A program made the translations under genes and the position numbers. This document shows, piece by piece, positions 46,050 through 63,330 of a DNA stretch of 64,000 bases. The DNA is taken from positions 1 through 64,000 of the forward strand of contig NZ_JALKBD010000010.1 in NCBI RefSeq assembly GCF_023015905.1, given 5' to 3'. Below the pieces are notes generated by a model. It saw only the letters and a list, made by a program, of their open reading frames with translations. It was not told the origin of the DNA and did no database searches. Origin of the DNA: Arenibacter sp. F20364. Lineage in GTDB: Bacteria > Bacteroidota > Bacteroidia > Flavobacteriales > Flavobacteriaceae. Numbering within the stretch: position 1 is the stretch's first letter; the number at the start of each line of letters is the position of its first letter.

Positions 46050-46092
46050 CCAAGTTAGTGGATGTGCTTCTGAAATAATATGACCTTGGTCA
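46050..46092 (-). promoter_or_regulatory. TGAC-box promoter of lipoprotein-ldhA operon
   Basis: The box TGACCTTGGTCA is at 46081-46092 and a -7-like element TAACTTGG (one mismatch to TAnnTTTG) at 46050-46057, read on the minus strand. The centres are 33.0 bp apart. The transcript leader would be about 145 nt. Confidence 0.6.
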
Positions 46093-46101
46093 GTTAGGCC
46101 A

Positions 46102-46530
46102 TTATTTCCCTTCTTGCTTGTTCATTATAAGTATGCTGCCAGTATAATTAAAAATTTCGGATTTCAGGTTTTGATAATTGCCCATACATTCATCAACCTC
46201 CATTTGAAGACTATCATTTTTTTTAACATTGTCCTGATTAATGGAACTGACCTTGCCGCCCGACATGCTGCCTAAATTGTTTTCGTGCAATGAAATCTGA
46301 GTTCTTATGGCTTCACCTCTATTGTTGATCTCCTCCACCCGGGTTTTATAATCCTGAAGGCGTTCAAAGAGGTTGGGGATGTTGGGCTTAAAGGCGTTGG
46401 AATCCAATAGGCGTTTTATAAAAACAATTTCGTTATCCATTAATTGAAACTGTAATTTCCATTGCTGAATTCTCCAGTGTAACTGTGCAATTTTCTTCCC
46501 ATTATCCGTGGTAATATTTTTGTTTTCCAT
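46102..46530 (-). CDS. Coiled-coil protein of unknown function
   Basis: I use the ATG at 46530 (142 residues, MENKNITTDNGKK); the longer frame adds a hydrophobic stretch without support. The sequence is highly charged and heptad-like (LHWRIQQWKLQFQLMDNEIVFIKRLL, LFERLQDYKTRVEEINNRGEAIRTQISLHENNL), predicting a long helical bundle. No family is recognised. It follows the metallohydrolase gene by 63 bp and may be the last gene of the usp1 transcript. Confidence 0.7.
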   Translation of the reverse strand: MENKNITTDNGKKIAQLHWRIQQWKLQFQLMDNEIVFIKRLLDSNAFKPNIPNLFERLQDYKTRVEEINNRGEAIRTQISLHENNLGSMSGGKVSSINQDNVKKNDSLQMEVDECMGNYQNLKSEIFNYTGSILIMNKQEGK

Positions 46531-46593
46531 TTTTTTAGGATCTTGAATAAAGATAAGAACTTTTAAAAACTGCCACAATGAGATTTGTCATCC

Positions 46594-47970
46594 CTAATTT
46601 CCGATAAACATTTCTTGTACTTCATTGAGTTTGGGGACCTGAACTTTCCATCCATGTACATCCCTGATTTTCACCCTAAAGGCATCCAAGGAAGTAGGTT
46701 CACCATGGATAAGGAATACCGTTTCGGGAATATTGTCGATTTCCTTCATCCAGTGTAACAACTCCCTTTGATCGGCGTGGGCCGATAGACTTTCCAAATG
46801 ATGTATTTTTGCCTTAACGGGATAATATTTTCCGAATAGTTTAATTTCATAGGCCCCTTCGTATAGTTGTCGTCCACGGGTCCCTTCTGCTTGGAAGCCA
46901 ACCAATAACACTGAAGTTGATGGTACATCGATCAGCTGTTTTAAATAGGTAAGCACTCTGCCTCCGGTTACCATGCCGCTTCCGGCAATAACAATCTTGG
47001 GCCTGGGATCGTCTATGGTCTTCCAAGTATCGGCGTAGGAAGTTATGATGTTGAAATGATTGCACATGGCACGATACTCGCTCATAGGCAGTTTATGCCA
47101 ATGTGGAAATTGTTCAAAAACAGACAGGACATTGTTGCCCATAGGGCTATCTATAAAAACGGGAATATTAGGGATCTTATTTTTTTTGTACAATCTCCAA
47201 AGTAGGTACATTAAAGATTGTAGTCGTTCCACGGCAAAGGATGGGATGATAAGATTTCCCCTTTCAAGTATGGTTGTTTTAATGAGATCACTGAGTATAC
47301 CTTCAACATCTTCTTCAGGATGTAATTTATTCCCGTAGGTGCTTTCCACAAAAAGATAATCGGCCCATTTTGGACGATCCGGGGCCTCTAAAAGATCATC
47401 CTGCAATCGGCCAATGTCTCCAGAAAAAACAAACATTTTCCCAAAGATTTCCAGCTCAATAAAGGTTGCCCCGATGATGTGCCCGTTATATCGGAACCTG
47501 ATGCGAATATGCTCGGAAAGGCTGATCCATTGGTCTTTTTCCTTGGCCTGAAACAAATCGAGGGTACGCTCGGCTTCTCTTAACGTGTAAAATGGCAATG
47601 CGGGATAATGCTTGCTATACCCTTCCTTATTGGCCTGTTCGGCTTCCTCTTCATGTATCTTTGCACTATCCAAAAGAATGATCCGTGTAATGGCCAAAGT
47701 GGGCGCTGTTCCTAGAATTTTTCCCTTAAAACCTTCCTTTAATAATCTGGGCAAGTATCCCGTATGGTCCAGATGTCCATGGGTCAATAGCACCATATCT
47801 ATTTTTGAGGCATCTATGGGCAAGGGATTCCAGTTTTGCTGTCTTAGTTCTTTTAACCCTTGGAACATACCACAATCTACCATTAGATTTAATTCAGGGG
47901 TTTCCAAATAGAATTTAGAACCCGTTACGGTGCCGGAGGCTCCCAAAAAATGTACTTTGATAGTATTCAT
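46594..47970 (-). CDS. Beta-CASP metallo-beta-lactamase-fold hydrolase (RNA-processing type)
   Basis: A 458-residue MBL-fold enzyme of the CPSF73/Ysh1 group. Metal motifs include LTHGHLDHTGYLP (HxHxDH), GHIIGATFIELEIFGKMFVFSGDIGR and LESLSAHADQREL; the inserted beta-CASP domain has IIPSFAVERLQSLMYLL and PVFIDSPMG, and IVIAGSGMVTGGRVLTYLK is motif A of the group. Such proteins are endo/exoribonucleases. It starts 3 bp after the ATP-cone nuclease gene, so the two are coupled. Confidence 0.9.
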   Translation of the reverse strand: MNTIKVHFLGASGTVTGSKFYLETPELNLMVDCGMFQGLKELRQQNWNPLPIDASKIDMVLLTHGHLDHTGYLPRLLKEGFKGKILGTAPTLAITRIILLDSAKIHEEEAEQANKEGYSKHYPALPFYTLREAERTLDLFQAKEKDQWISLSEHIRIRFRYNGHIIGATFIELEIFGKMFVFSGDIGRLQDDLLEAPDRPKWADYLFVESTYGNKLHPEEDVEGILSDLIKTTILERGNLIIPSFAVERLQSLMYLLWRLYKKNKIPNIPVFIDSPMGNNVLSVFEQFPHWHKLPMSEYRAMCNHFNIITSYADTWKTIDDPRPKIVIAGSGMVTGGRVLTYLKQLIDVPSTSVLLVGFQAEGTRGRQLYEGAYEIKLFGKYYPVKAKIHHLESLSAHADQRELLHWMKEIDNIPETVFLIHGEPTSLDAFRVKIRDVHGWKVQVPKLNEVQEMFIGN

Positions 47971-47973
47971 AGA

Positions 47974-48819
47974 TTATTGATTGCAGAGCTGCTTAATTTC
48001 ATTCAATATTTTTCCCTTTCTGGTATTGGAAATTCCCAAATGGTCCAAAAAGAACTTATCCTTCCAAAGTTGCCTACATAACACGACATCCCTACTCAAT
48101 AAAAACTGTTTTTCCCTATTGCTTAGTAGGGTGGATACCGTGATGGGGTAAAGTCCCAAACGATCAATCCGATCCTTTAGACCATCATTTAATGGTAGGT
48201 CCCAGCTCAAAAGATACAAACCTACACATTTGCCATAGGCTATGGCATCAGCGGTAAAACGGGTATTGGTTACCACCCAACCTTTATCCAGTTCCTTGTA
48301 TTCTTTTTTTTTGGTGCCCCAATGCGCCTTAACGTCGTTGTATCTGGAGTGAATGTATAGGGGGATCTTAACATTGCAGTTACGCCCTTCCTCTGAGTGG
48401 AATTTACATTCGATAACAGTGACGGTTCCGTTTTTTTCTGCAATTACATCAATTTCATGGGTTACACAGAGACCGTTCATAATTTCATCTACACGGGTCT
48501 TGTAACCTGAATATTCCAATAATGCGGCCACAAATCGTTCGAAGGGAAACCCTGTAGGGCCCAATTCATAAATGGCTTTTTTTAATTTGTATTTTGAAGC
48601 AAAGACCGATTTGTTTTTTTTCAAAAGGGCGTAGGCCCTGTTGTAAATTTCCTTGGTACTTATACCCTCGTAAAGCTCGTCTTTTACCTGGTCTACAATT
48701 TTTTCCACTACATTATGGTCGGCTCCACTGTGCTTGAGGGAATTACGGAGTTTATCCAAAGAAAATTTGGCTCGTTTCCCAGAGGATTTTATAATGTCAA
48801 TATCAAAATCCTTTTCCAT
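47974..48819 (-). CDS. ATP-cone plus Mrr-type restriction-endonuclease-fold protein
   Basis: A 281-residue fusion. Residues 7-90 are an ATP-cone domain (IIKSSGKRAKFSLDKLRNSLKHSGA, KDELYEGISTKEIYNRAYALLKK), normally a nucleotide-sensing domain of ribonucleotide reductase or NrdR. From about 105 an Mrr/PD-(D/E)xK domain follows: FERFVAALLEYSGYKTR, HEIDVIAEKNGTVTVIECKFHSEEG with the D, E-x-K residues, and VKAHWGTKKKEYKELDKGWVVTNTRF. It is probably a DNA-acting nuclease controlled by nucleotide level. It lies between MscS and metallohydrolase genes with 1-3 bp gaps. Confidence 0.85.
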   Translation of the reverse strand: MEKDFDIDIIKSSGKRAKFSLDKLRNSLKHSGADHNVVEKIVDQVKDELYEGISTKEIYNRAYALLKKNKSVFASKYKLKKAIYELGPTGFPFERFVAALLEYSGYKTRVDEIMNGLCVTHEIDVIAEKNGTVTVIECKFHSEEGRNCNVKIPLYIHSRYNDVKAHWGTKKKEYKELDKGWVVTNTRFTADAIAYGKCVGLYLLSWDLPLNDGLKDRIDRLGLYPITVSTLLSNREKQFLLSRDVVLCRQLWKDKFFLDHLGISNTRKGKILNEIKQLCNQ

Positions 48820-48820
48820 A

Positions 48821-49720
48821 TCATTTCTTTAGATTTATATCCAATTCCGGTATTTTTAAAAGTTGTAAGGTGGTAGAAGCCAAAGTTACCCTACCATCTG
48901 TAGCATTAAGAGCCAATACGATTTGCTCGAACAGTTCGTGTTTTGTAATCCGTCTTAATTTATAATCCGTGATATACCTTAAATTGATGGCTATCCAGTT
49001 GTCCGTTGGACTAATGGCCAGGGTAGGGGCTATTGTCGCATTTTCTATATAATAGTGCTCTACCATTTGCTTCCATTTTGCCATGGAATTATCCGTGTAT
49101 TCATAAAGGAATTCAGTAGCCTTTTCCAAAACCAGTTTTTTTGCCAGGGCAACATCCGATTCATAGGTTATTAGTATATCAAGTTCATCCCAAACAAAGG
49201 GGAAGTCCATGGAATAGTTCTTTATGGGCCCCTTGAAAACAAAGGCATTACTGATTTTCACGATTCTCCCCGTATAATTGTCACTACTGACCCATTCCCC
49301 GATTTCCATTAAAGTAGTATATATGCTATCGATATCAATAACATCTCCTTTAATGCCGTTAATCTCGATGCGGTCTCCTGGCTTATAGACCCTAACAAAA
49401 AAAATGTAAAATGATCCTGCAATACTTAATATCAATTCTTGTAGTGTAAAGGTTATACCTGCAGTAAATAGGCCAATAATTATAGTATAATCCTTTATAT
49501 TTTCTACCGTAAATGCCATAAGAATCAACAGCGCTATTAGAACGTAGCCAATAATCTCTACTCCTTTTTGCGCCTTATATCTAACGGAGACATTCTCAAT
49601 TCTTTTTTTTAGGGTCCTACGTAGAAAACCAATTAACAACCCAATGGCCAAAATCCATAATAGTAGTTTCGCAATCCGCAATACTATGGGGTCGTTAATA
49701 AAATCCAAGAGACTGTCCAT
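48821..49720 (-). CDS. MscS family mechanosensitive channel
   Basis: From the ATG at 49720 (299 residues; an upstream TTG is less likely). Three N-terminal helices (VLRIAKLLLWILAIGLLIGFL, GVEIIGYVLIALLILMAF, TIIIGLFTAGITFTLQELILSIAGSFYIFFV) end in the pore helix, followed by the beta domain (VYKPGDRIEINGIKGDVIDIDSIYTTLMEIG) and vestibule. It is shorter than the MscS at 35308. Its close coupling to the nuclease gene at 47974 is unusual. Confidence 0.9.
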   Translation of the reverse strand: MDSLLDFINDPIVLRIAKLLLWILAIGLLIGFLRRTLKKRIENVSVRYKAQKGVEIIGYVLIALLILMAFTVENIKDYTIIIGLFTAGITFTLQELILSIAGSFYIFFVRVYKPGDRIEINGIKGDVIDIDSIYTTLMEIGEWVSSDNYTGRIVKISNAFVFKGPIKNYSMDFPFVWDELDILITYESDVALAKKLVLEKATEFLYEYTDNSMAKWKQMVEHYYIENATIAPTLAISPTDNWIAINLRYITDYKLRRITKHELFEQIVLALNATDGRVTLASTTLQLLKIPELDINLKK

Positions 49721-50204: not shown

Positions 50205-50216
50205 AATACAATAATT

Positions 50217-51062
50217 TTAAGATTCGTTTAAAGCCAGAATAGGAACCTTGGCATCATAGCCGATTTCCTTAATTAATGGTCTTGAAAATATACTGTTGAA
50301 CAGGAAATGTTTTTTGTTGATGAACGCAATCATGTCACTCTTCCTGCTCTCCACAAATGTGGTTATTCCCCCAGCGATGTCCTTATCGGTAAGTGTGTGG
50401 AAGCTGTGCTCAACACTTTCAAGAATATCGTCCAAAAGCTGTTTGTGGGCCTCTTGGTCTTCGTCCAGGGAAGTTTCCTTTGTAAAGTGTAAAACACGAA
50501 TCGCTGTTTGGTGCATCTTAGCTATCTCCAACAAATAATTTAATTCCTTGCGCTTAAAGGTGGATTTATAATTTGTGGGGAAGACAATTTCTTTGGGAAC
50601 GGAAAACGTCATATCCTCGGGAATTGCCATAACGGGGCATCCTCTGATTTTCTCCATGGCATTTACGGTGTTGCTACCAAAAATTATTCCTTTGGCACCT
50701 GTAGCACCTTGAGTACCCATGACAACAAGATCTATACCTTTGCTGTCAATGGCCTCTTTCATGGCTACTGATAGAAAATTGAAGGTGGAAATGGTGTGAT
50801 AGCTATGTTTAGGGTTGTCGCGGTGTAACTCCAACATGTTTAATAGCTTGGCAAAACGTTCTTCCGATGCTCCCTTGGCAGCTTCATATTCCGCACTTCC
50901 CGGTTCTGGCATCATGAGGTTGCTGGTAGTGTAGCTCTCCATCCGGAAAACATGTAAAAAGTAGAATTCACAATTCAGTTTTGCATACAGATCCAAGGCA
51001 TAGCGCGTGGCATTCAGTGCATTTTGGGAGAAATCGGTGGGAATTAAGATTCTTTTGTCCAT
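50217..51062 (-). CDS. Universal stress protein, tandem domain (usp1)
   Basis: From the ATG at 51062 (281 residues). The frame is open 23 codons further upstream, but that part covers the TGAC-box promoter and is not a gene start. The N-terminal Usp domain begins RILIPTDFSQNALNATRYAL and has the ATP loop MGTQGATGAKGIIFGS. The C-terminal domain lacks the loop and instead has FINKKHFLFNSIFSRPLIKEI. It heads a run with baeRF-like, MscS, ATP-cone nuclease, metallohydrolase and coiled-coil genes. Confidence 0.9.
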   Translation of the reverse strand: MDKRILIPTDFSQNALNATRYALDLYAKLNCEFYFLHVFRMESYTTSNLMMPEPGSAEYEAAKGASEERFAKLLNMLELHRDNPKHSYHTISTFNFLSVAMKEAIDSKGIDLVVMGTQGATGAKGIIFGSNTVNAMEKIRGCPVMAIPEDMTFSVPKEIVFPTNYKSTFKRKELNYLLEIAKMHQTAIRVLHFTKETSLDEDQEAHKQLLDDILESVEHSFHTLTDKDIAGGITTFVESRKSDMIAFINKKHFLFNSIFSRPLIKEIGYDAKVPILALNES

Positions 51063-51087: not shown

Positions 51088-51130
51088 TAAATATAACAGT
51101 CTGTAAGGACTGTGACTATGACAATTGTCA
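51088..51130 (-). promoter_or_regulatory. TGAC-box promoter of usp1 operon
   Basis: A perfect 12-bp palindrome TGACAATTGTCA at 51119-51130 and TATATTTA (TAnnTTTA) at 51088-51095, centres 33.0 bp apart, 62 bp upstream of the usp1 ATG. The box overlaps the last codon of usp2. Confidence 0.7.
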
Positions 51131-51986: not shown

Positions 51987-52823
51987 TTAAAATTGTGGAA
52001 TTACCAAGAAAGGAATGGTGACGTGAAACCCTATTTTTTTGATTACAGGTTCAATAAAGAGACGTTCCATAAATGTATGTTTGTTCTGCACCATGACCAG
52101 GAGGTTGATCTTTTGTTTGGTCTGAAAGTCATTGATGGCATCTATAACCTCATTGTTGGGCACCTCATGGAACAGTGCCTTGTTACCTAAAATCTTTCCA
52201 AGGCCTTTCTTTTGTTTTTCCTGTTCCGAAGTCAGTTCGTTACCCGTGGATACGTGCAATACATTTATTTGGGATCCGTGTTCATCGGCTATGTCCATAA
52301 GTTGGCTTAATCTTTCCTTTTTGTACTCTATTTCATAATCGGTTGGAAATAATATTTCCAATGGATTCTCATACTCAAAATTTGGGGGAATTACTAGAAC
52401 AGGACAATTGGCTTTTTTTATGACATGTACCGTATTGGTCCCAAAGAGGATTTCCTCGGCCCCTGTAGCTCCCTTGGTACCCATTACCACCAAATGTATA
52501 CCTTCGGATTCAACGGTTTCCATAACTTCGTTCACCAGGGTATTGAAAGCAGTATGTACAACAAAGCTGTGATTAGGGTTATTGTATTCCTTTTCCAAAC
52601 GACTTTTAAGTTTTTCCAGTTGGGTCATGGAGGTTTCCTGCATTACATCGCCCAAGCCAATTAGACCCGGACTTCCAACCAAATATTCTGCGTTATATAC
52701 CGGTGGCATATAGGTATGCATTACATAAAATTTACATTTTGCATTTTTAAAAATCTTCAAAGCGTAGCTAATGGCCTTAATGGAATTGTCTGAAAAATCA
52801 GTGGGAAGCAAAATTCGTTTCAT
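51987..52823 (-). CDS. Universal stress protein, tandem domain (usp3)
   Basis: A 278-residue protein with RILLPTDFSDNSIKAISYALKIF, ATP loop MGTKGATGAEEILFGTNT and, in domain 2, MVQNKHTFMERLFIEPVIKKI. It is the first gene of the long minus-strand run 52823 to 46102 and shares the bidirectional promoter at 52846-52919 with the thioredoxin gene. Confidence 0.92.
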   Translation of the reverse strand: MKRILLPTDFSDNSIKAISYALKIFKNAKCKFYVMHTYMPPVYNAEYLVGSPGLIGLGDVMQETSMTQLEKLKSRLEKEYNNPNHSFVVHTAFNTLVNEVMETVESEGIHLVVMGTKGATGAEEILFGTNTVHVIKKANCPVLVIPPNFEYENPLEILFPTDYEIEYKKERLSQLMDIADEHGSQINVLHVSTGNELTSEQEKQKKGLGKILGNKALFHEVPNNEVIDAINDFQTKQKINLLVMVQNKHTFMERLFIEPVIKKIGFHVTIPFLVIPQF

Positions 52824-52845: not shown

Positions 52846-52888
52846 TAAATCTAACGCAGAAGAATTTTGAAAACCATGATATCCGTCA
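52846..52888 (-). promoter_or_regulatory. TGAC-box promoter of usp3 (bidirectional box, minus side)
   Basis: The box TGATATCCGTCA is at 52877-52888, and TAGATTTA (TAnnTTTA) at 52846-52853 on the minus strand. The centres are 33.0 bp apart and the box centre is 60 bp upstream of the usp3 ATG. Confidence 0.6.
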
Positions 52889-52919
52889 GTTCTATTTCCT
52901 CTGTGTTTTGGTAATTTTA
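52877..52919 (+). promoter_or_regulatory. TGAC-box promoter of thioredoxin gene (plus side)
   Basis: The same box as for usp3 is followed on the plus strand by TAATTTTA at 52912-52919, again with centres 33.0 bp apart. A 150-nt leader with hairpins would follow before the thioredoxin ATG. Confidence 0.55.
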
Positions 52920-52938: not shown

Positions 52939-53047
52939 ACCTGCCTGCTGGCAAGCAGGTGCTCCGACGCTTAAGTCGAAATCTAAAATAAGGGTTCTTT
53001 CAATGCTTCGCGGGCCTGCCTTTGTAGGATGCAGACAGGCTTGCCCC
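52939..53047 (+). repeat. REP-like hairpin cluster in thioredoxin leader
   Basis: Three imperfect inverted repeats follow each other: 52939-52960 (ACCTGCCTGC with complement, one mismatch), 52965-52978 (CGAC / GTCG) and 53012-53047 (GGGC-CTGCCT type with complement). They are GC-richer than the surroundings and look like a repetitive extragenic palindrome. Copies elsewhere in the genome would confirm it. Confidence 0.5.
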
Positions 53048-53077
53048 GAGGTAGTTTACCTTTCAAAAAATAGAATT

Positions 53078-53377
53078 ATGAAGGATAGTTTTAACAATAT
53101 AATCAATTCGGAAATACCTGTTCTAATCGATTTTCACGCAGATTGGTGTGGTCCTTGTAAAATGTTGGCCCCCATTTTAAAACAGGTCAAGGATGAAATG
53201 GGCAATGCCCTTAAAATCGTAAAGATAGATGTGGACAAGAATCAATCCCTGGCCAGTACTTATCAAGTAAGGGGCGTACCAACCATGTTGCTGTTTAAAA
53301 ACGGAAAACAGGTTTGGCGACAGTCGGGAGTGCTACAAAAGAATGACATCGTTCGGGTTATTCAACAACATATTTAA
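53078..53377 (+). CDS. trxA: Thioredoxin
   Basis: From the ATG at 53078 (99 residues); the longer frame reads through the hairpins. FHADWCGPCKMLAPILKQVKDEM carries the WCGPC active site, and GVPTMLLFKNGKQV the cis-Pro loop. It is a cytosolic disulfide reductase. It stands alone on the plus strand inside the usp cluster and shares the regulatory box with usp3, which places it in the same stress response. Confidence 0.93.
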   Translation: MKDSFNNIINSEIPVLIDFHADWCGPCKMLAPILKQVKDEMGNALKIVKIDVDKNQSLASTYQVRGVPTMLLFKNGKQVWRQSGVLQKNDIVRVIQQHI

Positions 53378-53421: not shown

Positions 53422-54261
53422 TTATTCATGTACTATTAGAAATGGAATCTTGGTATGGTAGCTAATTTTTTCGACTGAGGGTTTAAATAGGATTCGTTCC
53501 AAGAAATTTAAGTTCTTGGCTATCATGACCAACATATCCAAATCCCTACTTTCTACAAAAGCTTGTACGGCATCATCCAGATTTTTTAAGGTAAGTGTAT
53601 GAAAGGTATGCTCATTTTCCCTGAAATAATTCTTGATAAATTCCTTGTTCTTCAGTTGTATATCACTAAGGTCTTTATCTTTTTGGGACACGTATAGGAA
53701 GCGCAGTGCAGCGTTATGCATTATAGCAAGCTCCTTTACTTGGTTCAGGACCTTAATGTCATACGTTAATTGGAAATCTGTAGGAAATCCTATTTCCCGT
53801 GGGTTTTTATACTCGGCGTCTTCGGGCACTGCCAGAACTGCGCATCGTACTTTTGTTAGAACGTTGCCGGTATTGCTTCCCAGGGAAACAGCCTTAAGGC
53901 CGGTGGCTCCTTTGGTCCCCATGATGATCAGGTCAATATTTTTATCCTGTACTTCCTGCTTGATATGATCAGTGAAAAATCCGTACAACGCCGATGTATT
54001 AAAGGTATGTTTGGTGTTAAGGGGCAAGCGTTCAATTTCTTTAAGCAAATTTTCCAATTTTTCCTTACTTTCCTTTAGGATGGTTTCCTCCAATATTTCA
54101 GGAGAAACATACATGGCGGCTTCACCACCGGAATTGTAGGCAATGGGATTTATATGAATAATATGAAAAGTACATCGTGTTTTATGGTACAAAGCCGTAC
54201 CATATTTAATGGCATTCCAGGCATTGTCAGAGAAGTCAGTAGGTATCAATATATTTTTCAT
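53422..54261 (-). CDS. Universal stress protein, tandem domain (usp4)
   Basis: A 279-residue protein: NILIPTDFSDNAWNAIKYGTALY, ATP loop MGTKGATGLKAVSLGSNTGNV, and a domain 2 with MIAKNLNFLERILFKPSVEKI. The SNTG form and NLNFL variant are shared with usp9, so these two are probably the closest pair. It has its own box promoter at 54318-54360. Confidence 0.92.
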   Translation of the reverse strand: MKNILIPTDFSDNAWNAIKYGTALYHKTRCTFHIIHINPIAYNSGGEAAMYVSPEILEETILKESKEKLENLLKEIERLPLNTKHTFNTSALYGFFTDHIKQEVQDKNIDLIIMGTKGATGLKAVSLGSNTGNVLTKVRCAVLAVPEDAEYKNPREIGFPTDFQLTYDIKVLNQVKELAIMHNAALRFLYVSQKDKDLSDIQLKNKEFIKNYFRENEHTFHTLTLKNLDDAVQAFVESRDLDMLVMIAKNLNFLERILFKPSVEKISYHTKIPFLIVHE

Positions 54262-54317: not shown

Positions 54318-54360
54318 TAAAATTAATTGCTCTTTAATTGTTCCCCAATGACATATATCA
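54318..54360 (-). promoter_or_regulatory. TGAC-box promoter of usp4
   Basis: TGACATATATCA at 54349-54360 and TAATTTTA at 54318-54325 (minus strand), centres 33.0 bp apart. The leader is longer than for most other usp genes: the box centre is 94 bp from the ATG, yet the box to -7 spacing is unchanged. Confidence 0.65.
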
Positions 54361-55416: not shown

Positions 55417-56265
55417 CTAGGATTGTTCCGGAAGGAACAAGACCGGCACTATGGAATGGAAAGCAATTTTTTTAATAACAGGCTCTTCAATTATTCTTTC
55501 CCAAAAGCTGTGTTGGTACCTTACCATGGTAAGAAGGTCCGCCCTGGTTTCAGCCACATACTGCTCCACGCTATGCGCTATACTGGCCTCGAAGACAAGT
55601 TCATGGAGGGAATAGTTGGAACCAGCTAAACGTTCCTCCAAAATTTTTATATTCGTTTTCTGTGTATCGTTCAGTTTAAATTCAACGGCCACGTGTATTA
55701 CTTTTATTGTTGCGTTCCAAAGTTTTGTAAGTTCTACCATGGGCAATAGCTCCATCTTTTCATATTTTCTCGTATAATCCGTAGGAAAAACCAGTGTCCG
55801 AAGCTTTTGGAAGTTATAGTCTTTGGGAACTGCTAAAATGGATATGTTTTTAAGTTGTTTTAGGACATTTACCGTATTGCTGCCCATAAAAATTTCCTTT
55901 GCTCCAGTAGCTCCTTGAGTACCCATAACCACGAGGTCTATATCGCTTGCGGATACCAACTCCTTGACAGCCCCTTCCAAAGTGTCGGACCTGGAAATGG
56001 TTTCAAAACTGTGGTTCTGGTTGTTGTGGTTTTTACTTAGATAAGTCGCTATTTTTTCCAATTCCTGAGCTGAATACTGCGCCAATGAGTCATAAATGAC
56101 TCCTAATCGTTGTTGGCTTTTTTGCCCCAACATATTCATAGCCTTGGGTTCATAGGCGTGTAAAATGATAAACTTGCATTTCACATCGGTATAGAGTTTT
56201 AAGGCCGTAAATATGGCATTCCAGGCATTATCTGAAAAATCTGTCGGCAATAGGATCTTTTTCAT
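55417..56265 (-). CDS. Universal stress protein, tandem domain (usp6)
   Basis: A 282-residue protein: KILLPTDFSDNAWNAIFTALKLY, ATP loop MGTQGATGAKEIFMGSNTVNV, domain 2 MVRYQHSFWERIIEEPVIKKI. The start overlaps the usp7 stop by 4 bp (ATGA), so it is translated from the usp8-usp7-usp6 transcript. Confidence 0.92.
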   Translation of the reverse strand: MKKILLPTDFSDNAWNAIFTALKLYTDVKCKFIILHAYEPKAMNMLGQKSQQRLGVIYDSLAQYSAQELEKIATYLSKNHNNQNHSFETISRSDTLEGAVKELVSASDIDLVVMGTQGATGAKEIFMGSNTVNVLKQLKNISILAVPKDYNFQKLRTLVFPTDYTRKYEKMELLPMVELTKLWNATIKVIHVAVEFKLNDTQKTNIKILEERLAGSNYSLHELVFEASIAHSVEQYVAETRADLLTMVRYQHSFWERIIEEPVIKKIAFHSIVPVLFLPEQS

Positions 56266-57131
56266 GATTCGGTTTTTTTAAGGGGTTTTTCCCAATTGTC
56301 CGGTATTGCCAAAAAGGGTATCCTGGAATGGTATCCAATGGAATCTATCGTAGATTTATTGATCAGTCGATGTAAAAAAGTATGCTTACGGTTCATGATG
56401 GCCAGTAGACCAATTCTATGTTTTTCTACATATTCATGAATGGCGTTTGGCATTAATTCGCCCTTGACCTGCTCAAAGGAATGGTCCATGGTATCAAGGA
56501 AAACGCCAAGGGCTTTTTTATGGTCATTTTGTTTCTCGTTGAGAACAAAATCCTCCTTAACATTCAATACAATCAATCTAGCCTTGTGCATCTTGGACAT
56601 TTCTGCAAGAAAACCTAATGCTTTGGGGTCATATGGAGTGGTGTAATCCGTAGGGAATACTATAGAGTTAATTTCCTTAAAGGCATAACCATTGGGAATG
56701 GCCAATACCGGAATCTTAGCTTTTTTGATAACATGGACGGTGTTGGTTCCCAAAAAGATTTCCTTGGCCCCTGTAGCTCCCTGGGTCCCCATGGCAATGA
56801 TGTCTATTCCCTCCCGTGCGGTAACCTCTTCAATTTCATCGGTCAGAATATTAAAAGATGAAATGGTCTTGAATTGATGGTTTTTGTTGTGAAGGTTCTT
56901 TCTTATATCCCTTAGCGTTTTTTCCAAACCCGCTTGGGCCGTCTCGACCCCTTTGTCCGGAATGGCACTGTTGACCGGACCGCCCATCATATAATCTACC
57001 CTATAAAATGTAGGGGTATAGGTGTGAAGTATATAGAAAAGGCATTTTTCATTTTGGAAATAGTTCACCGTATATAAGATGGCGTTCCAAGCGTTGGCAG
57101 AAAAATCGGTGGGCAACAAAATTTTTTTCAT
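56262..57131 (-). CDS. Universal stress protein, tandem domain (usp7)
   Basis: A 289-residue protein: KILLPTDFSANAWNAILYTVNYF, ATP loop MGTQGATGAKEIFLGTNTVHV, domain 2 IMNRKHTFLHRLINKSTIDSI. It starts 17 bp after usp8 and overlaps usp6 by 4 bp. A short charged tail (WEKPLKKTES) extends past the last strand. Confidence 0.92.
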   Translation of the reverse strand: MKKILLPTDFSANAWNAILYTVNYFQNEKCLFYILHTYTPTFYRVDYMMGGPVNSAIPDKGVETAQAGLEKTLRDIRKNLHNKNHQFKTISSFNILTDEIEEVTAREGIDIIAMGTQGATGAKEIFLGTNTVHVIKKAKIPVLAIPNGYAFKEINSIVFPTDYTTPYDPKALGFLAEMSKMHKARLIVLNVKEDFVLNEKQNDHKKALGVFLDTMDHSFEQVKGELMPNAIHEYVEKHRIGLLAIMNRKHTFLHRLINKSTIDSIGYHSRIPFLAIPDNWEKPLKKTES

Positions 57132-57148
57132 CCTTGTATCTTTTTAAA

Positions 57149-57994
57149 TTATCTAGGTAGATTTTGCATCACCAAAAAGGGCAACTTTAATCTCAGCCCT
57201 ATTTCGTCTACGGTTGATCTGTAAAGCATATCCTCCAAGAATGAATGGCGCGAGTTTACCATGACCAAAAGGTTTATGTTATTCTTTTTGATGTAATCCA
57301 TTATGGCCTCGGCCTTATTCTTAGCGGGGCATATCTCAAAAAACAGGAAGGCCTCTGCCAGGGATTCCCTAAGGAAGCGTTGGTTGTCTATCTGTCTGTT
57401 GCTTAAATCTTCAAAGTCTGAAATGTATAGGCAATGGATTTCCGATTTAAATTCGGAAGCCAAGGTGTTCAATAACTTCAATTCCCGACGCTTATACGGC
57501 AGCATATAATCTGTGGGAAACAATATCTTTTTAGGCTGTTGGTATTCATAGTCCAAAGGAACTGCGAGTACAGGACACTGAACGTATTTGAAAACCTGTA
57601 CCGTATGGCTACCGAAAGTGATTTTTTTGTCGTCAGTTTGCCCTTTTGTACCCATTATGACGAGGTCAACATTTATTTGGTTGGCAAAATCGTTCACTGC
57701 ATCGACCAAAGTGTCGAATGCCGATAGTGTTTCATAGGTGTGTTTTGGATTGTGCTCCCTAGCAGTTAGTTTTTGGATAAGATCTTTTAAATATTTATCC
57801 GTATTGTTCTTAACAGTTTCCTTTTGCTCTTCAATAGAGGTTTCCCCATTAGTCTTGAACGGGCCATAAACCTCATCGGCATAAGCATGTAAAAAGTAGA
57901 AGTTGGTGCGTTCACATTTGTATAGATTCAATGCATAATCTATGGCATTCATGGCACTGTTGGAAAAATCGGTAGGAATCAAAACTGCTTTCAT
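57149..57994 (-). CDS. Universal stress protein, tandem domain (usp8)
   Basis: A 281-residue protein: AVLIPTDFSNSAMNAIDYALNLY, ATP loop MGTKGQTDDKKITFGSHTV with Asp-Asp instead of Gly, domain 2 MVNSRHSFLEDMLYRSTVDEI. It heads the usp8-usp7-usp6 operon and has a strong box promoter at 58017-58059. Confidence 0.92.
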   Translation of the reverse strand: MKAVLIPTDFSNSAMNAIDYALNLYKCERTNFYFLHAYADEVYGPFKTNGETSIEEQKETVKNNTDKYLKDLIQKLTAREHNPKHTYETLSAFDTLVDAVNDFANQINVDLVIMGTKGQTDDKKITFGSHTVQVFKYVQCPVLAVPLDYEYQQPKKILFPTDYMLPYKRRELKLLNTLASEFKSEIHCLYISDFEDLSNRQIDNQRFLRESLAEAFLFFEICPAKNKAEAIMDYIKKNNINLLVMVNSRHSFLEDMLYRSTVDEIGLRLKLPFLVMQNLPR

Positions 57995-58016: not shown

Positions 58017-58059
58017 CAAAGTTATTGGTAGCGACATATAAAACCTATGACATTTATCA
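58017..58059 (-). promoter_or_regulatory. TGAC-box promoter of usp8-usp7-usp6
   Basis: TGACATTTATCA at 58048-58059 and a perfect -7 TAACTTTG at 58017-58024 (minus strand), centres 33.0 bp apart. The box centre is 60 bp upstream of the usp8 ATG. Confidence 0.75.
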
Positions 58060-58089: not shown

Positions 58090-58926
58090 TTATTCGTGAA
58101 GGACCAACAATGGAACCTTGGTTTGAAAACTGATTTTTTTAATGGTGGTATCGAACAATAATTGTTGTAGAAAATTTAGGTTCTTGGCCACCATGATAAC
58201 CATGTCAATGTTCTCGCTTACCACAAATTGCTCAATGGCACTTTTGGCCTTTTCATGTTTTAGGTTGTGGATACTGTGAGATTTTTCATAAAGCTCCAGC
58301 AGATAGTCCTGTAAATAGACCATATTCTGATTTTGGGCTTCATTTAATTGTACATTGGGCTTGGAGACATTAACAACACTTAGGTTGGCTTTGGTAAGTC
58401 GGAGCATCTTTGAAATAGCTTCCAAAATGGAATGGGAATAGAAAATGTTATAATCGGTAGGAAAGGCGACTTCTTTAGGGATGCATTGTACTGCTTTTTC
58501 AGGAATCACCAATAGATTACATGGTACTTTAGTCATGACATTACCGGTATTGCTGCCCAAAATGGTTTCTTTTATACCGGAAGCCCCTTTGGTTCCCATG
58601 ACAATCAAATTTATTTTTTTGTCCAATACGGTCTTGCGAATAATATCTATAAGATTTCCATATTCGTGCAGGGCAATAAAATTATGTTCCTTGTTGGAGG
58701 TAATGGTCTTAATGCGGGCAAAGGTTTCCGTTAGATTATCCTTAAGTCTCTCATTGATATCTCTGGATGGTAGCACAAAGGAATTACTGTCTACACCGGA
58801 CTGCCTTAATGGGTCAACATGTAAAACGTAAAAATTGCAGGAAGCGTCTTTGAATAACTTAATGGCATATTCAATGGCGTTCCAAGAATTATTGGAAAAA
58901 TCGGTGGGGAACAGTATATTCTTCAT
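58090..58926 (-). CDS. Universal stress protein, tandem domain (usp9)
   Basis: A 278-residue protein: NILFPTDFSNNSWNAIEYAIKLF, ATP loop MGTKGASGIKETILGSNTGNV, domain 2 MVAKNLNFLQQLLFDTTIKKI. It lies next to the response-regulator gene but is separately promoted by the box at 58981. Confidence 0.92.
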   Translation of the reverse strand: MKNILFPTDFSNNSWNAIEYAIKLFKDASCNFYVLHVDPLRQSGVDSNSFVLPSRDINERLKDNLTETFARIKTITSNKEHNFIALHEYGNLIDIIRKTVLDKKINLIVMGTKGASGIKETILGSNTGNVMTKVPCNLLVIPEKAVQCIPKEVAFPTDYNIFYSHSILEAISKMLRLTKANLSVVNVSKPNVQLNEAQNQNMVYLQDYLLELYEKSHSIHNLKHEKAKSAIEQFVVSENIDMVIMVAKNLNFLQQLLFDTTIKKISFQTKVPLLVLHE

Positions 58927-58949: not shown

Positions 58950-58992
58950 CAAAATTACGGTAATGGCTATACCTGAATTATGACATTGGTCA
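58950..58992 (-). promoter_or_regulatory. TGAC-box promoter of usp9
   Basis: TGACATTGGTCA at 58981-58992 with a perfect -7 TAATTTTG at 58950-58957 (minus strand), centres 33.0 bp apart. The box centre is 60 bp upstream of the ATG. Confidence 0.75.
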
Positions 58993-59031: not shown

Positions 59032-60084
59032 TTAATTTATGTATTGTAAGGCCTTTAATTCCTTGATGCGAATATTTCTACCTTCAATGTCGATCAGCCC
59101 TTCTTTTTTAAACCCGGATAGGGTACGTATAAGGCTTTCGGTGGCAATACCGGCTACACTGGCCAAATCGTTTCGTGAAATTTTAATGGGATCTTCGGTT
59201 TTTTTATTCATGACTTCTGCAAACTGCAACAAAGTTTGGGCTGTTTTCTTACGTACGGAACTATAGGCCATTTGTAACAATTGCTGTTTTATGTCCTTAA
59301 TATTTCCAGTGAGCAGTTCCATTAGCTCCAAGGAGATATTATGGTTCTTTTCCAATACCTGTTTTAAATTTTCCTTGGATATACCGGCTAGTTCCACATC
59401 TTCAATAGCGGTCGCCGATTCCTGATACGGAATATTGTCTATAAAGGAGGTAAATCCCAAAAAGTCGTCGGCCCTATAAAGCGAAGTGATCAGTTCTTTT
59501 CCGTCCTCATCCATAGTATGGCATTTTACTACCCCTTTTAAGATAAGGTATATTTTGTGAGAATAGGTACCTTCTTGATAGATGGCAGTACCTTGAGGAA
59601 AATTTGCAGGCTCGCCATTGTCGTCAAAAAAGTTCTTTAACTCGTTCAAGGTGCGTATCTGATCTTCCAAATCTGTTGGATTTATTGATCCTTCCTTTGC
59701 CATACGCCCCAATAGTTCCACTTTTGCCAAACGACTTTCAATGGCATTTATGAGGTCTTCCTCTTCAAAAGGCTTGGTGAGGTAATCGTCCGCGCCAAGA
59801 TCCATTCCTCTACGTATCTCTTTATGTTCAGTCTTGGCAGATAGGAATATAAAGGGTATGTGCTTGGTTTTTTTATCTGAAGAAAGTTCCTTTAAAACGC
59901 CATAACCGTCTACCTCTGGCATCATTATGTCGCAGACGATAATATCCGGCAATTTTTCCTTTGCCATTTGAATGCCAATTTTTCCGTTTGGAGCGGTAAT
60001 CATGGTATAACCTGAAAGCTCCAAAAGTTCTTCGGTATTCTCACGTAAGGCTCTATCGTCCTCGATCAATAAAATAGTCTTCAT
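59032..60084 (-). CDS. Response regulator: receiver domain fused to Crp/Fnr-type regulator
   Basis: A 350-residue protein. Residues 1-125 are a CheY-type receiver with the acidic pair at Asp9/10, phosphoacceptor Asp52 (VCDIMMP), a Ser/Thr switch at FLSAK and Lys in YLTKPF. Residues about 150-265 are a Crp-type beta-roll (FPQGTAIYQEGTYSHKIYLILKGVVKCH, FLGFTSFI). The C-terminal winged helix has SRNDLASVAGIATESLIRTLSGF, where the Glu-x-x-x-Arg of the Fnr recognition helix is kept. No LuxR HTH is present. It starts 7 bp after the kinase gene and probably controls the TGAC-box regulon. Confidence 0.9.
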   Translation of the reverse strand: MKTILLIEDDRALRENTEELLELSGYTMITAPNGKIGIQMAKEKLPDIIVCDIMMPEVDGYGVLKELSSDKKTKHIPFIFLSAKTEHKEIRRGMDLGADDYLTKPFEEEDLINAIESRLAKVELLGRMAKEGSINPTDLEDQIRTLNELKNFFDDNGEPANFPQGTAIYQEGTYSHKIYLILKGVVKCHTMDEDGKELITSLYRADDFLGFTSFIDNIPYQESATAIEDVELAGISKENLKQVLEKNHNISLELMELLTGNIKDIKQQLLQMAYSSVRKKTAQTLLQFAEVMNKKTEDPIKISRNDLASVAGIATESLIRTLSGFKKEGLIDIEGRNIRIKELKALQYIN

Positions 60085-60091
60085 TGTTCTT

Positions 60092-61603
60092 TCAATTTAT
60101 GTTTTCTAATGGGATAACTATTGTAAAAATAGATCCTTGGTTTTCTTCACTCGTAAATACAATGGTGGCACCAAGATTCTCCAAATGTTGTTTGGCAATG
60201 TTAAGTCCAATGCCCGTACCTTGGTTCAACAATGCATTTTCTGCCCGGAAATAACGATTAAAAATATGTTTCTGTTCTTCGGCAGGGATACCAATTCCAC
60301 GATCGATCACTTCTATTAGTATGGTGTCCTTTCCTTTTCTCACCGCTAGACTTATAGTTGTATCTTCAGGGGAATATTTAATGGCATTGTGAATCAGGTT
60401 GGACAAGGCCAGTTCCAAGGTTTTTTCATCAAATCTGACGAAAATGTCATCGATATTCTCAGGATATTTGATGGTTTGGCCCGCCTTAAGGAGCATGTTG
60501 GCACCATAGACTACCTCGTTGACAATTTTGCTAAGTGGGAAAGTTTCCAACTTGTAATTTACCTTTCCTGAATCCAAACGCTCCACCGAAAGAAAATCGG
60601 TTAAAATGGTATCCAGATAGCGTACTTTGTTCTTTATGGTTTCAACGTGTTTGTCCCGCTTTTCCTGTTGGTGACTTTCGGTATACTTGGCCAATAAGGT
60701 AATAGAGGTAAGTATACTGCTCAAAGGGGTCTTGAATTCATGGGAAACCAAGGAAAGGAAGCGTGTTTTCAGTTCGTTCAATTCCTTCTCCTTGGCCAAG
60801 GCTTCCGTAAGTTGTTTGGTGCGCTCTTGGACCTTTTTTTCCAGCTTTTCAGTGTAATTTTTTCGTTCAGTTATATCTAGTATAATAGCAACAAAAACCT
60901 GCTTTTCCCCCAGTATGGATAGTTGAAGATGTACTTCTACCGGATATATGGAACCGTCCTGCCTTTGGTGGTCGGTCTCAAATTTCACCTTGAGCCTTTC
61001 TCCTTTCAATAAGGGGTCTATTAGGGTTTGGAATTGTGGGGCGTCCATATGGGGTTTAATATCCAAAGGCTTCAATGTCTTAAACTTTTCCAAAGAATAG
61101 CCCATATTGCGCTGTGCTTCTTTATTGACATTTAGAAAGTGGAGTGACGTGGCATCGAATACATATATTTCGTTCAGCGATTCATCAAATATTCTGGCCC
61201 AATGACTAAGTTCCTTTTCCTTTATTTTACGTTCCGTAATATCAATGATAAGGGCCATTACATAGGTTTCCTCATACAGTTTAAATGGGTTGAGCCCAGC
61301 TTCAACAGGAAACTCATTGCCATTTTTGTGTACTCCGTGTAGGTCCCTTCCTTGACCCATTTGCCTTCTTTCGCTTTTTTCAATGAAACGTTCCACATGC
61401 TGATCGTGGTGGCCGCGGTACCTTCGTGGCACAAGGGTGTCCAATGGTTTTCCCAAAAGTTCCCCCTTCGTGTACCCAAACATTCTCTCGGCGGAGGAAT
61501 TGGTGGCAACAATTGTCTGCTCGGTATTGACTACTATAATTCCTTCAGATACCCCTTCCGAGAGGAGGTTGAAGATTTCACTGTTTTTTTGGAAAGCCCG
61601 CAT
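60092..61603 (-). CDS. Cytosolic PAS-PAS sensor histidine kinase, FixL-like first PAS
   Basis: A 503-residue kinase without transmembrane segments. PAS1 (about 8-125) contains RYRGHHDQHVERF and RRQMGQGRDLHG; His66 and Arg86 align, with the same 20-residue spacing, to the haem ligand His200 and Arg220 of Bradyrhizobium FixL as I remember it. PAS2 (about 133-248) is followed by a coiled coil, HisKA with SLVSHEFKTPL (His288) and a HATPase domain with LSNLIHNAIKYSP, DRGIGIP and GTGIGLNIAKQHL. It is the obvious partner of the following receiver-Crp protein. Many non-haem PAS domains share the His pattern, so haem binding is only likely. Confidence 0.9.
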   Translation of the reverse strand: MRAFQKNSEIFNLLSEGVSEGIIVVNTEQTIVATNSSAERMFGYTKGELLGKPLDTLVPRRYRGHHDQHVERFIEKSERRQMGQGRDLHGVHKNGNEFPVEAGLNPFKLYEETYVMALIIDITERKIKEKELSHWARIFDESLNEIYVFDATSLHFLNVNKEAQRNMGYSLEKFKTLKPLDIKPHMDAPQFQTLIDPLLKGERLKVKFETDHQRQDGSIYPVEVHLQLSILGEKQVFVAIILDITERKNYTEKLEKKVQERTKQLTEALAKEKELNELKTRFLSLVSHEFKTPLSSILTSITLLAKYTESHQQEKRDKHVETIKNKVRYLDTILTDFLSVERLDSGKVNYKLETFPLSKIVNEVVYGANMLLKAGQTIKYPENIDDIFVRFDEKTLELALSNLIHNAIKYSPEDTTISLAVRKGKDTILIEVIDRGIGIPAEEQKHIFNRYFRAENALLNQGTGIGLNIAKQHLENLGATIVFTSEENQGSIFTIVIPLENIN

Positions 61604-61607
61604 AAGC

Positions 61608-61615
61608 CAAAGATA
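61608..61615 (-). promoter_or_regulatory. -7 element of kinase-regulator operon
   Basis: On the minus strand TATCTTTG fits TAnnTTTG just before the kinase ATG at 61603, implying an almost leaderless mRNA. The box at 61628 is centred 22 bp upstream, in the -33 region, so bound regulator could repress here while activating the plus-strand gene. Confidence 0.4.
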
Positions 61616-61627
61616 AAATTTTTAAGC

Positions 61628-61670
61628 TGATTAATGTCATATAAAATAACTTGGCTATTCTCTATTTTTA
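61628..61670 (+). promoter_or_regulatory. TGAC-box promoter of TerB-like gene
   Basis: TGATTAATGTCA at 61628-61639 and TATTTTTA at 61663-61670 on the plus strand, centres 33.0 bp apart. The box centre is 62 bp upstream of the ATG at 61696. Confidence 0.65.
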
Positions 61671-61695
61671 AACTGATCTATTCAAGAATACAAAA

Positions 61696-62100
61696 ATGGA
61701 AAATACAAAGAAAGTTGGTAAGAAATTCTATGAAACCCTGGGAAAATTGTTTTATGCCGTGGCTGCTATAGACAAGCGTATCCACAAAAAGGAAGTAGAC
61801 AAATTAAGGGGGTTTATTCGAAAGTATTGGTTGGATGTGGATGGACTGGAGGATGAATATGGTACAGATGCTGCTTTTCAGATCGAATCAGTATTCGATT
61901 GGGCTATGGATAAGGAGGAGGATAGTGAAGCATGTTACGATGAGTTTAAGGAGTTCTATAAAGATAATAGCAATATGTTTAGTAAGTTTGTCAAGGTACT
62001 CATTTTAGATACTGCGAATGCCATCTCCAATAGTTTTTCAGGAAAAAATAAGGCAGAATTGGTGATGCTGGGCAAACTGGAACTTTTGCTAAAGGAATAA
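61696..62100 (+). CDS. TerB-like helical protein
   Basis: A 134-residue, all-helical soluble protein. LGKLFYAVAAIDKRIHKKEVDKLRGFI copies the first helical hairpin of TerB-like domains, with Asp and Glu at the metal-binding spacing. A Glu/Asp-rich middle (WAMDKEEDSEACYDEFKEFYKD) and a helical C-terminus KAELVMLGKLELLLKE follow. TerB proteins act in envelope or metal stress; the call is moderate. It is transcribed away from the kinase gene from a TGAC-box promoter. Confidence 0.6.
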   Translation: MENTKKVGKKFYETLGKLFYAVAAIDKRIHKKEVDKLRGFIRKYWLDVDGLEDEYGTDAAFQIESVFDWAMDKEEDSEACYDEFKEFYKDNSNMFSKFVKVLILDTANAISNSFSGKNKAELVMLGKLELLLKE

Positions 62101-62134
62101 TAAGGTAGAGAATTGGTTTTTTCCTTATTATTGA

Positions 62135-62959
62135 TCATATCTTGAATGTCATTACCGGCAATCTTGCGTGGTTGGCGATATCTTCACCTATACTTCCCAA
62201 TAAGAAATGTGAAAGGCCTTTTCTTCCATGTGTTGGAAGCGCGAGGATGTCAAATTTCTCGGTCTTACTAAAATTAAGTATCCCGCTTTCCACACTACGG
62301 TCATTATAAACTTCAACTTTAGCTTGGGTATCTCCAGCCTTGGACATGAATTTGGCTATGCGGTCATCGGCCTCCTGAGTACTCAAAAAGTCCTGATATG
62401 GGGTATTGATGTATACCAATCTTAATTTGGCTGAAAATTTTTGGGCCATCGACTTAACATTTTTATAGGCCATAATCATGTCCTCCGAAAAACTACAGGC
62501 GAAAAGGATATTCTTTATGGTAAAGTTTGATTTTTGCTCCTTTATAACCAAAACCGGAACATCGGAAGTACGTACCACCTTTTCGGTATTGGAGCCTATA
62601 AAAATCTCATTGAATCCAGTACTACCGTGGGAACCCATAACGATCAAATCTATATTTTGTTCCTTGGCAACATTGTTGAGCTCACTGAAGACCTTATAGT
62701 TCTGCACTATTTTATGAATATTGATGCCCTTTAAATAAGGTTTGTCCAAGAAGCTTTTAAATCGTTTTTTTGCAAGTCCCATAAAGTATTTTGCTTCCTC
62801 GAACCCTAATATTTCCTCTTCGGCAATAACTGCCTCGGAAATTCCCATCATATGGATAACGGTAATATCCGCATGCTGCTGTTTCGCTATGCCAGCTGCG
62901 GCCTCCAGTGCATAGGCCGAATGTTCTGAAAAATCTACGGGTACCAAGATGTGCTTCAT
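62135..62959 (-). CDS. Universal stress protein, tandem domain, both loops intact (usp10)
   Basis: A 274-residue protein, different from the other nine. Domain 1: HILVPVDFSEHSAYALEAAAGIA with ATP loop MGSHGSTGFNEIFIGSNT. Domain 2 keeps a complete loop, LPTHGRKGLSHFLLGSIGE, which the others have lost. It is therefore closer to ordinary two-domain Usp proteins. The box promoter at 63105-63147 implies a 145-nt leader. Confidence 0.93.
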   Translation of the reverse strand: MKHILVPVDFSEHSAYALEAAAGIAKQQHADITVIHMMGISEAVIAEEEILGFEEAKYFMGLAKKRFKSFLDKPYLKGINIHKIVQNYKVFSELNNVAKEQNIDLIVMGSHGSTGFNEIFIGSNTEKVVRTSDVPVLVIKEQKSNFTIKNILFACSFSEDMIMAYKNVKSMAQKFSAKLRLVYINTPYQDFLSTQEADDRIAKFMSKAGDTQAKVEVYNDRSVESGILNFSKTEKFDILALPTHGRKGLSHFLLGSIGEDIANHARLPVMTFKI

Positions 62960-63104
62960 TTTCTACTATTTTATCTTCAGTATGATTCTGTTACCTTTTT
63001 TACAGCGCTTTAAATTGACCAGTGTAGGGAGGGTTGTCCCATTATAATTTCATATTAAGGTCAGCCGGATTTAAAGTCCCAATTGAATCTTTAATGTTCC
63101 TAAA

Positions 63105-63147
63105 CAAAAATAAACAGTTGTTGAACCACTTAAAATGACATTGGTCA
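63105..63147 (-). promoter_or_regulatory. TGAC-box promoter of usp10
   Basis: TGACATTGGTCA at 63136-63147 and a perfect -7 TATTTTTG at 63105-63112 (minus strand), centres 33.0 bp apart, although the ATG is 145 bp downstream. The conserved spacing despite the long leader argues that both elements are real. Confidence 0.7.
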
Positions 63148-63287
63148 CTATATCCTGCTTTAATTGCAGCTGCCTTTATGATAATTAGACCAATAAGGTG
63201 CCACCTTCCAATTTGATAATTTTAATACTCTGCAAAATCTGGAGAATAGATGAACGACTATGGTTGGTGTTTTTATTTGGGCACTAC

Positions 63288-63330
63288 TGACATTGGTCAT
63301 TTTCTACTGGTAATCTGTATACTACTTTAG
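63288..63330 (+). promoter_or_regulatory. TGAC-box promoter of WG-repeat gene
   Basis: TGACATTGGTCA at 63288-63299 and TACTTTAG (one mismatch) at 63323-63330, centres 33.0 bp apart. The box centre is 58 bp upstream of the ATG at 63351. Confidence 0.65.

Follow-up and report, generated by a model that had tools for sequence, protein, structure and literature searches.

The FNR regulon of Escherichia coli is built on class II promoters, at which the activator is centred at −41.5, a position shared by CRP and FNR. The operator of E. coli FNR reads TTGAT-N4-ATCAA, and the ligand cysteines of the protein are C20, C23, C29 and C122. Here, a stretch of 64,000 nucleotides from Arenibacter sp. F20364 of the family Flavobacteriaceae (contig NZ_JALKBD010000010.1, positions 1 to 64,000; hereafter, the window) was analyzed, in which a short TGA-N6-TCA palindrome, referred to as the box, recurs between positions 46,050 and 63,330 upstream of genes for universal stress proteins (Usp) and other products. 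The box is quite likely the operator of CRP/FNR-family activators that act at class II promoters of a low-oxygen regulon, with at least two kinds of paralogue reading it.

A probable operator at a fixed distance from the −7 element

An earlier note, made from the sequence of the window, had listed nine such boxes, and each of them was found at its place (Table 1). The same note had proposed ten promoter readings with exactly 33.0 bp between the centres of the box and the −7 element, a distance made up by a 12-bp box, a 23-bp spacer and an 8-bp element; all ten were verified, eight being exact and two having one mismatch. In total, the window contains 29 TGA-N6-TCA sequences, 12 of which have the form TGAY-N4-RTCA, and nine of those 12 are the boxes in question. 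Strict box/−7 pairs occur eight times in the segment 46,001–63,400 and are absent from the rest of the window. An equal frequency in shuffled sequence, which the note had named as grounds for abandoning the idea, was not observed, as 500 dinucleotide shuffles of this segment gave a mean of 0.004 and a maximum of one strict pair. The description of the boxes as intergenic does not strictly fit the one at 51,119, which shares bases with the stop codon of the usp gene upstream.

As the note had suggested, the whole Arenibacter genome (5.74 Mb) was scanned for box, spacer and −7 element, with the pattern TGAYNNNNRTCA-N13..33-TANNTTTR. Across spacers 13–33, the scan returned 82 matches, versus 17 for the pattern read backward. 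Matches were concentrated at spacer 23, with 49, while the twenty other spacers together had 33 (0–4 each), and the backward pattern at fixed spacer 23 had no match in the genome. The base 3′ of the box, left free by the pattern, is T at 43 and G at six of the 49 sites. With genes called by a simple open reading frame (ORF) picker, all 49 sites are followed by a same-strand gene (the farthest at 454 bp), and 45 boxes lie outside any picked ORF; the other four fall into the 5′ extension of an ORF that was picked too long, ORFs of 52 and 53 aa, and an opposite-strand ORF of 165 aa. Relaxation of the −7 element to ANNTTTG adds a few likely spacer-23 promoters (e.g., C170:194674-194716), and the narrower box TTGAC-GTCAA has a single match.

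The relatives were represented by the best 80 (1.58 Mb), all named, of at least 568 candidate receiver-CRP loci, the closest of which come from Arenibacter. Spacer 23 accounts for 400 matches in these loci, which are non-independent events given that the 80 loci are interrelated; every other spacer from 0 to 60 has 0–16 matches, the highest being 11 (16), 24 (15) and 12 (13), and the reversed control at spacer 23 has none. A same-strand ORF follows within 400 bp at 378 of the 400 spacer-23 sites, at a median distance of 23 bp from the −7 element, compared with 112 of 179 matches at other spacers. Of 296 genomes scanned across the phylum, the 30 that belong to the same family all carry 5–49 sites (backward controls, 0–4), while those outside the family mostly have few, genomes G271 (28) and G126 (17) being exceptions. 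When the spacer was left free, 23 of 52 matches in G202 and 28 of 60 in G271 fell on spacer 23. The sequence rule and the enrichment of this spacing, both genome-wide and across genomes, are direct observations. Contrary to the note, the regulon is not local: of the 49 strict sites, eight lie in the window, ten on the rest of its 192-kb contig, and the remaining 31 elsewhere in the genome, which puts 41 outside the window, and every sampled genome of the family is positive.

A spacer of 24 bp may be a weak second mode, with four matches in Arenibacter, 15 in the 80 loci and seven in G271 (counted by eye), a suggestion qualified by the counts at spacers 11 and 12 in the same loci.

The 49 Arenibacter sites and the 400 sites in relatives share a twofold-symmetric operator with TGA/TCA half-sites, the consensus of the latter being [C/A]TGAY-N4-RTCA[T/G]. 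At the outer position 0, C was counted 232 times, A 142, G 18 and T 8, and at position 13, T 384 and G 16 times. FNR-like outer bases (TTGAT/ATCAA) were considered and ruled out, with an outer T at eight and an outer A at none of the 400 sites; the core TGAY-N4-RTCA fits. TTTG starts at the −35 column in eight sites and at the −30 column in 17, the highest count among the columns between box and −7 element. Because TTTG is so rare there, the usual −33 element appears to be mostly replaced by the box, and the fixed spacing supports a CRP-family activator site, in line with what had been proposed from the window. Mapped transcription starts of Flavobacterium psychrophilum place TAnnTTTG at −12 to −5 (PMC9723704); since the two centres are 33.0 bp apart, the box would be centred at −41.5.

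Target genes and candidate regulators

All ten Usp genes of the window match Pfam Usp, and nine of them lie behind a box directly or by operon according to the ORF layout, not seven as counted earlier. Most other gene labels of the earlier note (trxA, 2-hydroxyacid dehydrogenase, WG-repeat, MscS, nuclease) hold, the Pfam families of the window targets being thioredoxin, MscS, Mrr-type nuclease, beta-CASP nuclease, 2-hydroxyacid dehydrogenase and WG repeat; the TerB-like label had to be dropped, as the ORF at 61,696–62,100 matches no Pfam family. The 90 listed members of the regulon comprise 16 in the window, 15 of which were scanned, and 74 outside it, of which 31 were scanned, the rest being assigned by eye at most. 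NCBIfam matches over cut-off identify ccoN/ccoO, ccoS, hemN, copper nitrite reductase, Sec-dependent NosZ, phosphoenolpyruvate synthase and FtsH. All four non-window proteins picked as presumed Usp contain the Usp family; other non-window proteins match P-type ATPase, patatin, DnaJ_C, BON, L,D-transpeptidase, DeoC, AcrB-type pump and other families, and two of twenty scanned have no Pfam family. The identities of the scanned targets are direct observations. Many targets have nothing specific to low oxygen. By comparison with the FNR, FixK and ANR regulons, the respiratory and denitrification genes point to a micro-oxic or anaerobic regulon. The note had named no function; the targets suggest one in respiration, denitrification and survival at low oxygen.

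The Arenibacter genome encodes four proteins in which HTH_Crp_2 scores over cut-off, and a fifth with a weak match. Three of the four are paralogues with near-identical recognition helices (ATESLIR, ATETAIR and ATESAIR; TE[ST]xIR): the receiver-CRP of the window, a second receiver-CRP (C11:80218-81285) and an FNR-like protein (C170:194771-195457; L040:1771-2457). The fourth has the helix SRVVVSR. A strict site is found upstream of the FNR-like gene and of the second kinase/receiver-CRP pair. The helix similarity is itself observed; taken together with the distribution of the regulators and the downstream genes described below, it suggests an operator common to paralogous activators, with the receiver-CRP as one reader among two or three.

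At the thresholds used (E 1e-60 for receiver-CRP and E 1e-25 for the FNR-like protein), both regulators are present in 13 family genomes (median, 21 sites), the FNR-like protein alone in 14 (median, 9; range, 5–23), and receiver-CRP alone in three of 30, namely G053, G130 and G234 with 8, 10 and 16 sites. None of the 35 genomes (of 296) with at least eight sites lacks both regulators, and one or both occur in 87 of the 296. The earlier choice of the receiver-CRP as reader is therefore only partly supported: it is a good candidate, although probably not the sole reader.

For the comparison of downstream genes, the first ATG ORF of at least 60 aa was taken, so that some picks may be wrong. For the receiver-only genomes, 30 of the 34 sites were compared, and 17 downstream proteins match the Arenibacter regulon, including usp genes in all three genomes and, in G053, ccoS, hemN and a cytochrome of the nosZ operon. 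In the FNR-only genomes G202 and G257 (20 of 39 sites), the matches are nirK (G202) and ccoS, hemN and Usp (G257); thus, ccoS and hemN stand behind the code in both G053 and G257. In G053, G257 and G271, the genes downstream of sites include one for a protein with ScdA_N and hemerythrin domains, which we take to be a Ric-type repair protein.

The FNR-like protein, which can be aligned with the FNR-type regulator of PDB 5cvr/9qlt, has equivalents of C20, C23 and C122. Its Cys4, Cys7, Cys53 and Cys106 are conserved in 21 of 21 sequences, which makes an iron–sulfur (Fe–S) cluster plausible. Against the NCBIfam Fnr model NF008365 it scores 100.2 bits, below the cut-off of 228. The upstream regions of FNR-like genes were compared for 20 relatives (L206–L225). 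In 15 of them, the opposite strand has an NANNTTTG element, which never starts with T, at exactly the required distance from the box, and two have no box; this suggests that the box there drives the divergent gene.

The N-terminal PAS domain of the window kinase has its best PDB match in Sinorhizobium meliloti FixL (E 1.7e-15), and 13 of its 17 PDB matches are heme domains of FixL or E. coli Dos/DosP. Its His66 and Arg86, 20 residues apart, align with the proximal heme His and the distal Arg of FixL. Among the 79 relatives whose contig reaches the kinase (L083, the 80th, is cut off), His66 is kept in 79 and Arg86 in 69, the conservation of these sensor residues being directly observed. A first alignment had the heme His missing from eight of the 79, which a local search overruled. 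The AlphaFold model has a mean predicted local distance difference test score of 81.5, falling to about 54 around the His, so that only the overall fold match counts. FixL is the top Foldseek match, and because Dos and LOV-type PAS domains rank close behind, the fold alone is no proof of heme. The kinase reaches 101 bits with the NCBIfam FixL model NF041777, below its cut-off of 850. Judged from sequence, this FixL-type heme PAS kinase is the likely partner of the receiver-CRP encoded next to it.

The box at 61,628–61,639 is also located 25 bp upstream of the start of the kinase gene on the minus strand, where no class II −7 element was found; negative feedback on the kinase/receiver-CRP operon is possible. 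The second kinase/receiver-CRP pair (C11:77487-81285; L032:13487-17285) has a kinase with a LOV-type domain (best PDB match, E 5.6e-33; NCRFLQ motif), and the strict box upstream of it hints at light input into the same regulon.

Proposed mechanism and alternative readings

From these observations, we infer binding and activation at the box, the sharing of sites by paralogues, and oxygen sensing by heme or Fe–S. An activator dimer would bind [C/A]TGAY-N4-RTCA[T/G] with its centre at −41.5, in the place of the −33 element, and would recruit RNA polymerase to a TAnnTTT(G/A) −7 element starting exactly 23 bp past the box, an arrangement presumably used by about 50 Arenibacter promoters. Falling oxygen would then switch on the cbb3 oxidase, anaerobic heme synthesis, nitrite and nitrous-oxide reduction, phosphoenolpyruvate synthase and many Usp, and the same switch would activate the FNR-like regulator together with the second kinase/receiver-CRP pair. 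The putative readers are the receiver-CRP driven by the FixL-type heme kinase and the FNR-like protein with its four invariant cysteines, the second receiver-CRP being a third candidate.

Several points weigh against this proposal. The kinase/receiver-CRP operon of the window has no class II site of its own, and the −41.5 register is taken over from F. psychrophilum rather than from Arenibacter transcription starts. The outer operator bases are unlike those of FNR and FixK, A after TCA being found at none of 400 sites, and boxes outside ORFs are usual at other spacers as well (166 of 179), not just at spacer 23 (393 of 400). The FNR-like protein lacks an equivalent of E. coli Cys29, having the invariant Cys53 instead, and its match in G088 is only 33% identical. 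Target sets differ, since only four of 20 downstream proteins match the Arenibacter regulon in G202 and G257, and none of ten in G271 (10 of 28 sites compared). Genome G294 has seven sites (control, 0) and neither regulator at the thresholds used. Finally, taxonomy is linked both to the number of sites and to the regulators present. Genome G124 likewise has six sites and neither regulator, and in both G294 and G124 a more distant CRP protein may read the same code.

It is unlikely that the FNR-like protein alone reads the box, with the receiver-CRPs being mere targets of the regulon or active elsewhere. The classical targets cco, hemN, nirK and nosZ and the occurrence of the FNR-like protein in 27 of 30 family genomes would agree with this, whereas the three receiver-only genomes keep their sites, with usp genes behind them in each of the three and, in G053, also ccoS and hemN, and the receiver-CRP helix follows the same pattern as the FNR-like one. 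The converse, in which only the window receiver-CRP reads the box and the FNR-like protein uses another site, is rather improbable. Its gene and that of the kinase do lie within the dense site cluster, the three genomes just mentioned have the code with no FNR-like protein at the threshold used, and family genomes with both regulators are richer in sites; nevertheless, 14 of 30 family genomes have sites and no receiver-CRP at its threshold, and the FNR-like gene, whose product has a nearly identical helix, carries a strict site in Arenibacter. A repressor site that blocks polymerase from the −33 region, which the box indeed overlaps, is very unlikely, as repression would not require the distance to the −7 element to be exact to 1 bp, the 23-bp spacing is the same in different families, and the −33 TTTG is rare at the sites. 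Chance or the composition of AT-rich intergenic DNA, to which the short half-elements and the mostly extra-ORF matches at other spacers might have pointed, has a negligible probability, being already refuted by the spacing tally, with shuffles, other spacers and reversed patterns near zero and an unimposed T or G after the box at 49 of 49 sites. The shared reading of a class II operator by receiver-CRP and FNR-like paralogues is thus preferred here.

A further, weaker operator with a 22-bp spacer possibly precedes a cardiolipin-synthase-like phospholipase D (PLD) gene in the window; homologues of this gene in G130 and G234 (56% and 55% identical; L162 and L173) have the strict 23-bp form upstream.

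Table 1. Boxes, −7 elements and regulatory genes of the window (window numbering)
Feature	Position	Strand	Remarks
Operator box TGACCAAGGTCA	46081–46092	−	precedes lipoprotein and 2-hydroxyacid dehydrogenase run
−7 element TAACTTGG, one mismatch	46050–46057	−	33.0 bp from centre of 46081 box
Operator box	51119–51130	−	precedes usp 50217–51062 (start inferred) and run behind it; strict genome match
−7 element TATATTTA, exact	51088–51095	−	pairs with 51119 box
Operator box	52877–52888	both	two divergent promoters: usp 51987–52823 (−), trxA 53003–53377 (+)
−7 element TAGATTTA, exact	52846–52853	−	pairs with 52877 box
−7 element TAATTTTA of trxA, exact	52912–52919	+	pairs with 52877 box
Operator box	54349–54360	−	precedes usp 53422–54261
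−7 element TAATTTTA, exact	54318–54325	−	pairs with 54349 box
Operator box	58048–58059	−	precedes three-usp run 55417–57994
−7 element TAACTTTG, exact	58017–58024	−	pairs with 58048 box
Operator box	58981–58992	−	precedes usp 58090–58926
−7 element TAATTTTG, exact	58950–58957	−	pairs with 58981 box
Operator box	61628–61639	+	precedes small ORF 61696–62100
−7 element TATTTTTA, exact	61663–61670	+	pairs with 61628 box
Operator box	63136–63147	−	precedes usp 62135–62959
−7 element TATTTTTG, exact	63105–63112	−	pairs with 63136 box
Operator box	63288–63299	+	precedes WG-repeat protein 63351–63989
−7 element TACTTTAG, one mismatch	63323–63330	+	pairs with 63288 box
Possible further operator (weaker)	42768–42779	+	precedes PLD gene 42850–44262; GAACTTTG; spans 42768–42809
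Receiver-CRP regulator, candidate reader	59032–60084	−	Pfam Response_reg, cNMP_binding, HTH_Crp_2
Histidine kinase, likely receiver-CRP partner	60092–61603	−	first PAS 61226–61603 of FixL heme type; Pfam, PDB sequence match, conservation, fold

Comparison with known systems

As in the E. coli FNR system, the Arenibacter regulon combines a CRP/FNR-family helix-turn-helix, a TGA...TCA core, a predicted −41.5 centre and anaerobic or micro-oxic targets, and its FNR-like protein has an N-terminal CxxC and a Cys aligned to C122. It differs in the outer bases (C/A and T/G, not T and A), in the Bacteroidota promoter TAnnTTTG, in the absence of the Cys29 equivalent alongside an invariant Cys53, and in the presence of several paralogues, two of which are response regulators.

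The rhizobial FixL-FixJ-FixK system likewise has a FixL-type heme PAS kinase, a CRP/FNR output, and cbb3 oxidase and denitrification genes as targets. In Arenibacter, by contrast, receiver and CRP output are fused, with no separate FixJ and no transcriptional relay, and the outer operator bases differ from the TTGA-N6-TCAA of FixK. It is conceivable, albeit doubtful, that the arrangement is a condensed FixL-FixJ-FixK pathway, in which the heme kinase would phosphorylate a fused receiver-CRP with direct action on the class II promoters that the Bacteroidota sigma factor recognizes, while an Fe–S FNR with new ligands (C4, C7, C53 and C106) and the LOV-kinase/receiver-CRP pair would converge on the same operator, summing oxygen, redox and blue light at about 50 promoters.

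The present regulon would resemble the DosRST dormancy regulon of Mycobacterium in its heme-sensing kinase and in Usp genes induced at low oxygen; DosR, however, is of NarL type with a different operator, and the likeness is a functional analogy only. For CRP/FNR proteins of Flavobacteriales assigned to the MalR type, carbon sensing was predicted (PMC8510549). These proteins come from the same order and the CRP/FNR family, whereas the Arenibacter targets are low-oxygen genes.

A search of the literature by title and abstract, in a library without subscription journals and preprints, found no account of the box or of its spacing, none of a regulon of the FNR/FixL type in Flavobacteriaceae, and no description of a global low-oxygen activator in this family. 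With a base-pair-exact rule, the regulon becomes readable from the genomes of Flavobacteriaceae, and the class II geometry can be put to the test with the divergent sigma factor of Bacteroidota. A single switch, for which three candidate regulators can be named, would govern the Usp clusters, cbb3 oxidase, NirK and Sec-dependent NosZ, and with the last of these nitrous-oxide reduction. Regulons of CRP/FNR activators at class II promoters are a known kind. To judge from the literature searched, what is new is the form of the operator and the exact distance that ties it to the Bacteroidota −7 element, along with how large the regulon is and which genes it contains; the pairing of heme kinase and receiver-CRP as a putative condensed form of FixL-FixJ-FixK is new as well.

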